Under the pieces are notes generated by a model that was not told where the DNA came from, did no database searches, and saw only the letters and a list, made by a program, of their open reading frames with translations. The position numbers were made by a program, and so were the translations under genes. A DNA stretch of 50,985 nt from Stenomitos rutilans HA7619-LM2 (GTDB taxonomy: Bacteria; Cyanobacteriota; Cyanobacteriia; Leptolyngbyales; Leptolyngbyaceae), in NCBI GenBank assembly GCA_019358945.1, contig JAHHIE010000047.1:1-50985 (forward strand), written 5' to 3'. Below, piece after piece: positions 23,644 to 48,860 of the stretch; positions within the stretch are counted from its first letter, which is position 1, and each line of letters starts with the position of its first letter.

Positions 23644-24825
23644 TTATGCTGACGCTTTTGCAGCGGAAGCCCGCAATTGCCCACATGCCGCATCCGTCGC
23701 TAGTCCGCGAGACTGACGGACGCTGACGACAACATGCTTAGCTTTTAGCGCGTTGACAAACGTCTGGATGCGCTGTGGACTGGGCCGTTGATAATCAACT
23801 TCAGAGATGGGATTGTAGGGAATCAAGTTGACGTGACTCTGGAAGCCGCGTAGATGTTGGGCGAGTTCGATCGCGTGCTCTGGGCAATCGTTTAGCCCTG
23901 CCAGCAAGATATATTCAAACGTCACCCGCCGACCTGTTATCTGCACATACTCCCGACACTCATCCAGCAGTGCTTCTAAGGGATAATGCTTTGCGCTGGG
24001 AATAAGCTTCTCGCGTAATGCCTGATTTGATGCATGGAGACTGACGGCAAGGGTTGCACGGAGTTGACTGGCGGCAAGATTACGAATGCGACCCGGAATC
24101 CCCACCGTCGAAACCGTCATGGTACGCTGCCCAATCCCTACATCTTGATTTAAGCAGCGTAGAGCCGCAACCACATTCTCTGTATTCAGCAACGGTTCGC
24201 CCATACCCATAAAGACCACATTGCTGACGCGCTGCTGAAAGTCGTTTTGTACCGTCAGCACCTGATCCACAATCTCGGCTGTCGTCAGATTCCGCACAAA
24301 GCCGCCCTTCCCCGTGGCACAGAAGTCACACGCCATTGGGCACCCGACCTGGGAGGAGACGCAGACGGTGAGGCGGGTGAGAGAGGGGTGTAGGGTGTAG
24401 GGTGTGGGGTGTGAGGTAAGTTCGATCTCTGCGCCTTCGCGTCTCTGCGGTTGCCTGCCTTCTGCCCTCTGCCTTCTGCCTTCTGCCTCCTCCCAATCGA
24501 ATGTCGGAATCCCTACCGTTTCAATAATCTGTCCATCAGAAAGGCGCAGGAGAAACTTAACGGTGCCATCGGGAGCCGCAGAGCGGTGGTGGAGCGTTGA
24601 TCGCCCGATGTCCACACCTTCCAACTCAGCCCGCCATTCTTTGGAAAAAACGGAAATGTCGGTGAGCGATCGCACACCCTTTTGATACAGCCATTCATGC
24701 AACTGCTTGCCACGGTAAGGACGCTGCCCCTGCTGCTGTACCCACTCAGTCAATTCAGCTAAGGATTTGCCCAGAAGTGGCGCGGATGGATCAGTTTTTG
24801 GATTGGGGTGAATCAAAGAGGTCAT
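23644..24825 (-). CDS. rlmN: Dual-specificity RNA methyltransferase RlmN with repeat-derived insertion
   Basis: The 393-residue radical-SAM enzyme methylates C2 of A2503 in 23S rRNA and of A37 in some tRNAs. The cluster cysteines are C162, C166 and C169 (CPMACDFC), and the catalytic Cys is in DAACGQLR near the end. Between [11 protein letters not shown] and [15 protein letters not shown] lies an extra stretch of about 38 residues (111-149), rich in Arg/Gln/Glu and then Thr/Pro/His. Its DNA consists of heptamer repeats of the intergenic type. The insertion precedes the radical-SAM core, so activity may be kept. The start overlaps the DUF6887 stop by 4 bases (ATGA). Confidence 0.95.
24375..24492. 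repeat. Heptamer repeats inside rlmN
   Basis: The plus strand shows GGTGTAG/GGTGTGG units (about 24384-24416) and CTTCTGCC/CTCTGCC units (about 24458-24488). These are the same types found between genes in this window (29440-29480 and 50778-50812). They stay in frame with rlmN. Confidence 0.85.
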
Positions 24826-25064
24826 GGGTTGCGATCGTGCTTCTTCTGTTCGTCTTCCTCTGCCAGCCGCCGAATCGTTTCCTCCGCTAAACGAATGTTC
24901 TCCTCAATGGGCTGACCGTCTTTGTACGTTGGCGGCATTGTTGTCCATTTCCCATCAACATCAGGATGATGGAAGAGTGCCCGAATAGCTTCCAGATCAT
25001 CTCGATGCTCCAGCACATAGGCTTTCAATTCAGAGCGACTCATTTCGGCATAATTTGAGTTCAT
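24822..25064 (-). CDS. DUF6887-family protein
   Basis: An 80-residue acidic, helical protein ([26 protein letters not shown]...[17 protein letters not shown]). I recognise it as DUF6887, a small cyanobacterial family often next to DUF6888. The pair resembles a two-gene module, but I know of no proven role. It ends in a 4-base ATGA overlap with rlmN. Its start was probably also an ATGA overlap with DUF6888 before a MITE separated them. Confidence 0.8.
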
Positions 25065-25085
25065 AAGAAATCCCAAAGTCCACTA

Positions 25086-25177
25086 GTGGTTCGTCAGTTT
25101 TGATTTTGTGCTTTGGGTTTAGTGAAGGATGTTATTTTGTAAGTGAGAAACTCACAAAATAAGTCTTGACAGACCAC
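25086..25177. mobile_element. 92-bp MITE flanked by TA, inserted at the end of the DUF6888 gene
   Basis: Ends GTGGTTCGTCA (left) and TGACAGACCAC (right) are imperfect inverted repeats, with inner ATTTTGTG/CACAAAAT also pairing. Both ends abut TA (25084-25085 and 25178-25179), the target duplication typical of IS630/Tc1-mariner elements. There is no coding capacity of its own. Precise removal leaving one TA restores an uninterrupted reading frame (see the DUF6888 entry). Confidence 0.85.
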
Positions 25178-25355
25178 TAGGAGGTACAGTGATTTCGATA
25201 CTGTCGCCTGCAAGGATGTAGGCCGCTCCAGTGAGAGGGTCAAAGCGGAACAAATGAATGTCTCGGTAGGCTGTCGAAAGCATTGGACAGACCCGCAGGC
25301 AGGCGAGGGCTTGTTCGTTCGTCGGAATAAATGGCTGGTTCCTCAATTCTGACAC
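25152..25355 (-). CDS. DUF6888-family protein with MITE-altered C-terminus
   Basis: The 67-residue product PTNEQALACLRVCPMLSTAYRDIHLFRFDPLTGAAYILAGDSIEITVPP matches DUF6888. The last residues (GLSRLIL) are read from the MITE end. Without the MITE the frame would continue PPSGLWDFL and stop in an ATGA overlap with the DUF6887 start, a natural operon junction. The protein loses only about four native residues, so it may still work, but coupling to DUF6887 is lost. The start is a GTG at 25355; a TTG shortly after is possible. Confidence 0.75.
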   Translation of the reverse strand: MSELRNQPFIPTNEQALACLRVCPMLSTAYRDIHLFRFDPLTGAAYILAGDSIEITVPPSGLSRLIL

Positions 25356-25397
25356 AGGATGAGGATACCCAGAGAGGAGGCTACCATCGCTGATCGC

Positions 25398-26330
25398 CTA
25401 CAACACAGCCGCTCGTAGGCGGGCGATCGGCAAGCAGGTTAACTTCCGGGCACTGGGTACATAGGCTCGGCGGCGAAACACATCGTAGCCGTTCCGTTCG
25501 ATCTCGTCCAAAATGCCGCTGTATAACATGAGTGCGGCCCAAACTGGGAAGCGAGCATCGCGGTTGAGCGCTCGAATGCCCCGTTCGGCAGAGGCAAAAA
25601 ACTTACGGGCACGCTGAATTTGGAATCGCATCAGTTCACGCCAGCGCTCATCGACCACGCCATTAAACAAATCGTCTTCAGTGTAGTTGAACAGCGCCAG
25701 TTCATCTAGAGGAAGGTAGATTCGACCTCGGCTTGCGTCTTCGCCTACATCCCGTAGAATATTGGTGAGTTGGTTCGCAATGCCCAGCGCCACAGCTTCT
25801 TCCGTAGGATCATCGCTCACTTTGCGGTAGAGATCCCAGGGTGCTGTGCGGGGGGTCGTATCAATCCCCATCACAGGGGTGGTCATCAGGCCAACGGTGC
25901 CTGCAACCCGGTAGCAATAAAGTTCAAGCTGTTCAAACGTTTCGTAGCGCGATCGGTACAAGTCCATCCGCTGCCCTGCAATCATGTCGCGAAACGGCTG
26001 AATGTCGATCGGGAACCGTTCCAGGGTGTCTACTAGGGCCACATCCGGATCTTCGATCGGCTGACCAGCAAACACTGACTCTAGCTGCTTCTCCCACTGA
26101 TCTAGCGTTTCGGGTGTGGTTAAGCTTGCGCGAGGCCCATCCACCAACTCGTCGGTACGGCGACACCAGACGTAGATTGCCCAGATTGCCCGACGCTTCG
26201 CCTCTGGCATCAGCATGGTGCCCAGATAGAAGGTCTTGGAGTACTTTGCCGTAATTTGACGACAGAGTTCGTAGGCATCTTCCAGAGAAGCTAGAGTCCT
26301 CACACAAGAATAATCAGGCAATTTCAGCAT
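25398..26330 (-). CDS. crtB: 15-cis-phytoene synthase
   Basis: The 310-residue enzyme joins two geranylgeranyl diphosphates into phytoene, the first committed step of carotenoid synthesis. The two Asp-rich Mg-binding motifs are D60-E-L-V-D64 (RRTDELVD) and RDVGED in [32 protein letters not shown] near 30-42 is also typical. It has no chloroplast-type extension and is peripheral to the membrane. It lies 240 bases downstream of crtP on the same strand, the usual cyanobacterial order, so it is probably co-transcribed. Confidence 0.96.
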
Positions 26331-48587: not shown

Positions 48588-48860
48588 GGAGGGGTGAAGG
48601 GTAAGGGGTGGGAAGAGGGGGAAGCAGGGGAGGCAGGGGAAGAGTGCTTTGGGAATTTTGCTATAGGTGTAGCATAAGGGATGTGAGGGTGGCTAGAGGT
48701 TGGATGGGTAGTGTCTGCGGTGCCGACGATCGAGCAGGGTGAATCGTGTACTCAATCGTGTCAGGATCTAACCAGGTTTTACATTCCCATTTATTTGGTG
48801 AGGTTAGATACACGGACGGTCAACCTGTTTATGCTGCGATCGCTCAAACCTCGAACCACA

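Follow-up and report, generated by a model that had tools for sequence, protein, structure and literature searches.

A MITE at the DUF6888-DUF6887 junction of Stenomitos rutilans and a probable AUU-type start codon in the DUF6888 family

In the stretch of contig JAHHIE010000047.1 of Stenomitos rutilans HA7619-LM2 analysed here (50,985 nt; the window), a 92-bp element with inverted ends stands between two small genes, DUF6888 and DUF6887, and the question is what this junction looked like before the element arrived and what its arrival has meant for the two products. The genes were identified by domain profile match as PF21828 (DUF6888, E 1.3e-21) and PF21826 (DUF6887, E 5.1e-16), and the order on the minus strand is crtB-like gene, DUF6888, element, DUF6887 and rlmN (Table 1). 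The DUF6888 frame now reads ...PPSGLSRLIL and stops at a TGA within the element, and the relic of its old end lies beyond the element. A first-pass annotation had read the locus as a translationally coupled pair split by a MITE, with one protein end rewritten.

Table 1. Features of the DUF6888-DUF6887 locus (positions of the window)
Feature	Position	Strand	Remark
MITE, 92-bp, IS630-type	25086..25177		imperfect terminal inverted repeats GTGGTYYGTCA
Target-site duplication TA, first copy	25084..25085		CTAG context; empty site in relatives
Target-site duplication TA, second copy	25178..25179		CTAG context
DUF6888 (PF21828) frame per ORF finder	25152..25355	-	GTG start; stop within MITE
MITE-coded C-terminal tail GLSRLIL + stop TGA	25152..25175	-	7 codons in element
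Stranded relic of native DUF6888 end (..GLWDFL, TGA/ATG overlap = ATGA)	25061..25083	-	matches GGACTTTGGGATTTCCTATGA of the same-genus genome G006
DUF6887 (PF21826), 80 aa, ATG start	24822..25064	-
rlmN	23644..24825	-	ATGA overlap with DUF6887 stop at 24822-24825
Squalene/phytoene synthase family gene (crtB-like)	25398..26330	-	upstream neighbour; kept in G006 and G010
Shine-Dalgarno core GAGG of probable DUF6888 start	25341..25344	-
ATT, probable DUF6888 initiator in G006/G010, 8 nt from GAGG	25330..25332	-	out of frame in window: one extra T behind
In-frame ATT of window copy, directly before conserved PTxEQ	25326..25328	-	12 nt from GAGG

The element and the junction without it

The element described in the first-pass annotation was found exactly between its two TA dinucleotides, and its ends are imperfect inverted repeats (CTAGTGGTCTGTCA and CTAGTGGTTCGTCA, with the flanking CTA counted in). 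When the genome of origin (7.28 Mb, 119 contigs) was searched, 11 matches were obtained, seven of them full-length (including the window copy) and four partial. The six other full-length copies are 88-99% identical to the window copy and differ in their flanks, and all seven sit as C-TA-element-TA-G; one of them (L007) carries A instead of G as the first base of the element, and three of the seven overlap an ORF of 60 codons or longer. The element is short, lacks a transposase and occurs in several near-identical copies, as a MITE does, and a TA duplication flanks it on both sides, with TA and CTAG being indistinguishable as the duplicated unit at these sites. Because six more full-length copies occupy C-TA...TA-G sites elsewhere in the genome, the element is a genuine MITE of the IS630 type, and the identity first given to it stands. 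Its spread is patchy: in a search of 39 genomes (E <= 1e-8), 21 matches were found in one genome of another genus of the same family (G013), four in G014 and one each in G015 and G021, and none in six other genomes of the same genus.

IS630 is said, in the papers of Tenzen, to prefer TA within CTAG. The genome also carries an IS of 1.2 kb (G000:C92:956-2170) with two ORFs containing HTH_32 and DDE_3 parts; its ends (CTAGTGGTCAGTCAA and CTAGTGGTCGGTCAA) are related to those of the MITE, and it is a possible mobiliser. This HTH and DDE element resembles the MITE in the outer repeat, but the agreement covers only about the 14 outer bases; at IS distance, no pair of exact MITE ends was seen by eye among 42 places in the genome. 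TA duplication is common to the window MITE and to IS630/Tc1-mariner elements such as IS630 and ISY100 of Synechocystis, for which it is described (PMC2170065). The cyanobacterial MITEs Nezha and those of Anabaena sp. 90 are also short, palindromic and multi-copy, a likeness in general form; in Anabaena sp. 90, 15 of 147 MITEs are reported within disrupted ORFs (PMC3542288). A MITE in a gene end is an ordinary event of an already known kind.

To reconstruct the empty site, the element and one TA were removed in silico. The joined flanks (CCTCCTAGTGGACTTTGGGATTTCTTATGA) reproduced the proposed junction, in which the DUF6888 frame runs on as PPSGLWDFL and its TGA overlaps the DUF6887 ATG (25064) as ATGA. 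A search with the window DUF6887 covered the own genome and 57 relatives (58 genomes in total) and gave matches at E <= 1e-12 in six of them, one being the own genome. In G006, DUF6888 ends in GLWDFL with ATGA, and neither the element nor CTAG is present (CCGAATGGACTTTGGGATTTCCTATGAAC). In G010, it ends in GLWNFL with ATGA, again without the element, and the empty site keeps one CTAG (CCTCCTAGCGGACTCTGGAATTTTCTATGAAA; CCTCCTAGCGGACTC). The end in G050 is GLWDFLL, likewise with ATGA, and two more distant loci (L033 and L034) end in VWRFP and LWRFS, also with ATGA. The loci of G006 and G010 are positional orthologues, flanked by crtB and rlmN in the same arrangement as in the window. By tblastn against 122 family loci (see below), both the window crtB and RlmN were found only in G006 (also L102) and G010, besides the window; many of these loci span no more than about 1 kb, and absence there carries little weight. 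The overlap of DUF6887 with rlmN, which had also been noticed at the outset, is real and recurs in G006 and G010. The alignment of the window with G006 shows both the excess DNA and an extra T. The comparison that had been proposed with relatives' loci therefore returned the WDFL-like end and the ATGA without the 92 bases in G006 and G010, and the ending GLSRLIL was found at no other family locus among the endings compared.

The stop/start overlap across the family

With the own genome counted in both sets, searches with PF21828 found DUF6888 in 29 of 37 genomes from the order, at up to 13 matches per genome, and in 45 of 194 from across the phylum; 14 control genomes had none. The 122 family loci comprised 32 from the order search and the own genome, 40 further places of the same search and 50 named loci; two are duplicates (L091 = L102, L175 = L143). 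From the order search the better-scoring places were taken (72 with the own genome) and the broken L099 and L100 were left out, so that weak copies are under-represented.

The DUF6888 stop overlaps the DUF6887 start at 99 of the 122 loci, by 4 nt at 53, 17 nt at 31, 11 nt at eight, 1 nt at four, 14 nt at two and 20 nt at one. The rest consist of four loci with a gap of at most 20 nt, four with larger gaps (the window, L095, L098 and L123), ten at which DUF6887 was not found and five that are broken. The large gap of L098 is an error of the finder, which picked a later ATG, and four of the ten loci lacking a DUF6887 call (L012, L086, L153 and L159) show ATGA by eye, the search motif having been too strict. 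The overlap is a rule of the family and the window is an exception to it. The end of the protein is also conserved: an alignment of 29 rows (the window core and 28 of the 50 named loci) shows W and F of a terminal W-x-F at 90% conservation or more, and W-x-F forms the last strand of the DUF6888 model (mean pLDDT 89.5).

Two other interrupted junctions were seen. At L095 (G012:C53:41489-41650), an 87-nt gap with GCGCATC repeats, by eye unrelated to the MITE, separates DUF6888 from DUF6887. In Nostoc spongiaeforme FACHB-130 (L123:3150-3380), a palindromic insertion of about 150 bp with flanks TTGAAGCAA lies in the DUF6887 start and is lacking in the relative L124; it is an independent hit on the same small junction. 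At two paralogues in the own genome (G000:C12:46090-46457 and G000:C54:18398-18702), DUF6888 is broken by a stop or frameshift and the adjoining DUF6887 is open. On plasmid pC052_H of Nostoc sp. C052 (L193:1501-1668), an open DUF6888 frame with an ATG start was found where the PLSDB table, known to be incomplete, has no gene. Neither DUF6888 nor DUF6887 is named in the literature searched.

The start codon of DUF6888

In G006 and G010, no in-frame ATG was found near the conserved PTxEQ motif; an ATT stands there instead, 8 nt behind a GAGG. An in-frame GTG lies further upstream in G010, and G050 has the same ATT without the GAGG and an in-frame TTG seven codons upstream. The pattern was counted across the family as an ATH codon at one of the three positions before the motif, with GAGG, AGGA or GGAG 4-11 nt upstream. 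With a strict anchor, 103 of the 122 loci were usable (two exact duplicates, three that were too short and 14 without the anchor were dropped). ATH with the Shine-Dalgarno core was found at 68 of the 103, the window included (ATT 57, ATC 6, ATA 5), and the other classes were ATG (13, none with the core), ATH without the core (8), TTG or GTG (2) and other (12). As a reading-frame control, the pattern was sought in all three frames and occurred at 69 of the 103 loci in frame, against 5 and 0 in the other two; the class count of 68 differs in giving ATG priority and heeding upstream stops. As the loci are related and not independent, certainty drawn from these counts is overstated.

At 40 of the 68 loci, an in-frame stop lies upstream with no ATG, GTG or TTG after it, and at 16 of these 40 the stop is within 10 codons. 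A canonical codon, which may be the start there instead, is present within 15 codons at 16 of the 68, and the window copy has an in-frame GTG and TTG, 10 and 7 codons upstream, from which its frame is also open. Loci bearing the pattern include L076, L121, L172, L173, L179 and L180, and in the window it occupies 25326-25344. The spacing from the core to ATH is 5-8 nt in 66 of the 68, the two outliers, both at 11, being the window and L077. Moreover, ATT is commoner at the start (57/68) than among the internal Ile codons of the same genes (186/359). A hold-out set was drawn from other genomes across the phylum (28 loci, each differing from every main locus in its first 60 nt; one was dropped for want of the anchor). 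It agreed with the main set: the pattern occurred in frame at 15 of 27, against 3 and 2 in the other frames; nine of the 15 carry an in-frame stop but lack a canonical start, three have TTG directly behind ATH, and ATG was found in five of the 27, again without the core. Between the window and G006, the 60-nt bin holding the Shine-Dalgarno sequence is among the best conserved (97%).

Taken as a pattern of sequence, these counts indicate that the DUF6888 family probably initiates at AUU, AUC or AUA, a weak codon behind a Shine-Dalgarno sequence. An upstream out-of-frame (A/G)TG start combined with frameshifting was also considered, the extra T of the window putting that GTG in frame; it was set aside, as L171, L172, L173 and L179 lack such a codon, judged by eye and not by a count, yet keep the AUU. 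The infC gene of the own genome, taken as an AUU comparison, was ambiguous, with ATG, GTG and ATT all in its leader. Conservation was further observed beyond the Shine-Dalgarno sequence, to about 21 nt upstream of the start (GTCANAATTGAGGAA; 69 DUF6888 loci, looser anchor), which suggests a leader element or an extended pairing.

Non-AUG starts in chloroplasts have reportedly been the subject of a study, and among the titles in the literature searched, no paper on AUU start codons in cyanobacteria was found. In Staphylococcus aureus, infC, ccpN and cvfC1 are described as genes with AUU or AUA starts and an extended Shine-Dalgarno sequence, with about 10% of the AUG yield from non-canonical starts in poor medium (PMC13009471). 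A weak start behind a Shine-Dalgarno sequence is common to these genes and DUF6888, whereas DUF6888 is a multi-copy cyanobacterial family with dozens of members. If the reading is true, DUF6888 would add a cyanobacterial family to the few known bacterial AUU-started genes, and members without ATG, GTG or TTG would be missed or shortened by gene callers limited to those starts. This start-codon pattern matters more than the MITE insertion and is the part worth following.

Consequences of the insertion

In this lineage, an IS630-type MITE has very probably inserted into a CTAG within the final codons of DUF6888. The stop/start overlap is replaced by an 87-nt gap, and the last native residues (..WDFL) are lost, including the Trp kept in at least 90% of aligned relatives. 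The native overlap, retained in relatives (99/122; ATGA in G006 and G010), has the structure of a coupled pair, and we infer that such overlaps mean translational coupling. Ribosomes finishing DUF6888 would then terminate within the element, with 87 nt still to go to the DUF6887 start, coupling by termination and reinitiation would be lost, and DUF6887 would rely on its own weak site (GGGA before ATG). Two further effects of the element were sought. A promoter or terminator carried by the MITE was rejected, since no promoter-like or terminator-like match was found in 24950-25450. One fold suggested that the MITE hairpin might bury the DUF6887 start, and this too was set aside: the predicted opening energies at that start, over three window sizes, are 8.0-10.0 kcal/mol with the element and 7.5-9.2 kcal/mol without it. 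With no such match and accessibility about unchanged, only the loss of coupling itself would act on the product ratio, which the first-pass annotation had suggested may be altered.

The 5' end of DUF6888 carries a second lesion: a single extra T immediately follows the ATT at which G006 and G010 probably initiate, and it puts that codon out of frame. For this reason the gene itself is probably on its way to being lost. As a description of the locus, the split of an overlapping pair by the MITE and the changed protein end both stand. The word "rewrote" in the first-pass annotation goes further and presumes that the protein is still made, yet the extra T follows the probable start, and at those positions of the DUF6888 core on which G010 and G050 agree, three derived changes belong to the window branch and one to that of G006. 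Both observations hint at decay, but changes so few in number do not prove relaxed selection. Because the extra base lies just behind the probable initiator, a dying gene is more likely than a rewritten protein. The protein may still be made from the in-frame upstream GTG or TTG, and the extra T could be a sequencing error. The dN/dS of the core against G006 is 0.15, by which strong decay has not shown yet; the core appears to have been under past constraint that is perhaps beginning to slacken. The dS between the window and G006 was 0.99 for the DUF6888 core (25176-25325) and 0.34 for the first 48 DUF6887 codons, from few sites, beside a nearly unchanged leader.

Overall, the insertion at the DUF6888 end has most probably brought, as its net effect, loss of DUF6888 function and an uncoupled, probably lower translation of DUF6887, and perhaps of rlmN. 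Three other explanations were weighed against this. It is unlikely that the insertion has been retained for the sake of a reset ratio between DUF6888 and DUF6887/rlmN: overlapping junctions are the family rule, so the ratio is plausibly under selection, and the element transcript folds strongly (25060-25200, minus strand, element with short flanks; 0 of 200 shuffles fold as well, z -4.5), but the lack of a promoter-like or terminator-like match, the unchanged accessibility of the start site, the occurrence of the insertion in a single genome and the lack of element matches in the six other same-genus genomes all speak against it. Still less probable is that the MITE supplied a new working C-terminus, GLSRLIL, in an altered protein kept by selection. 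The open core frame with its low dN/dS would agree with this, RLIL could replace the short hydrophobic strand judging from the structure model, and in-frame MITE fusions are described in other bacteria (PMC10969869); against it stand the loss of the family-conserved Trp, the out-of-frame probable initiator and the absence of the same ending from every other locus compared.

An assembly artefact or a misread element might be suspected in a draft of 119 contigs with near-identical copies elsewhere, but the window's own flanks on both sides align with G006, the TA duplication is perfect and the window copy has a base differing from the other copies, which makes this explanation very improbable. 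Loss of DUF6888 with uncoupling of DUF6887 is preferred, and the clean record before and after the insertion makes the locus a natural experiment on the role of a stop/start overlap in a gene pair.

A wider reading can be offered tentatively, and we hold it somewhat less probable than not. DUF6888-DUF6887 would be an undescribed multi-copy cyanobacterial two-gene module, possibly toxin-antitoxin-like, in which a conserved AUU, AUC or AUA (or UUG) start that follows a conserved GTCANAATTGAGGA leader keeps the output of gene 1 low, and gene 2 is coupled by the stop/start overlap. The window locus would then be a natural mutant that has lost both controls, one extra base having disabled the initiator and the MITE the coupling. 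The whole of this reading, with dosage control as its reason, is rated lower than its AUU initiation part alone. As is generally known of type II toxin-antitoxin systems, these consist of two small overlapping genes in several copies per genome, patchily distributed, with broken copies and with some on plasmids, and DUF6888-DUF6887 resembles them in these respects. Searches of PADLOC and NCBIfam (E <= 1) with the window DUF6888 and DUF6887 proteins found nothing, nor did Foldseek with the model of either protein at E <= 0.001 (pTM 0.46 for DUF6887) or a PDB sequence search with the DUF6888 profile; with the DUF6888 model, VIA-align reached a Z of at most 5.3, over 54 residues. A second, partial DUF6888 match was also observed elsewhere in the window (48723-48836, plus strand), where it runs into a long frame of FLFQVRS-like repeats.
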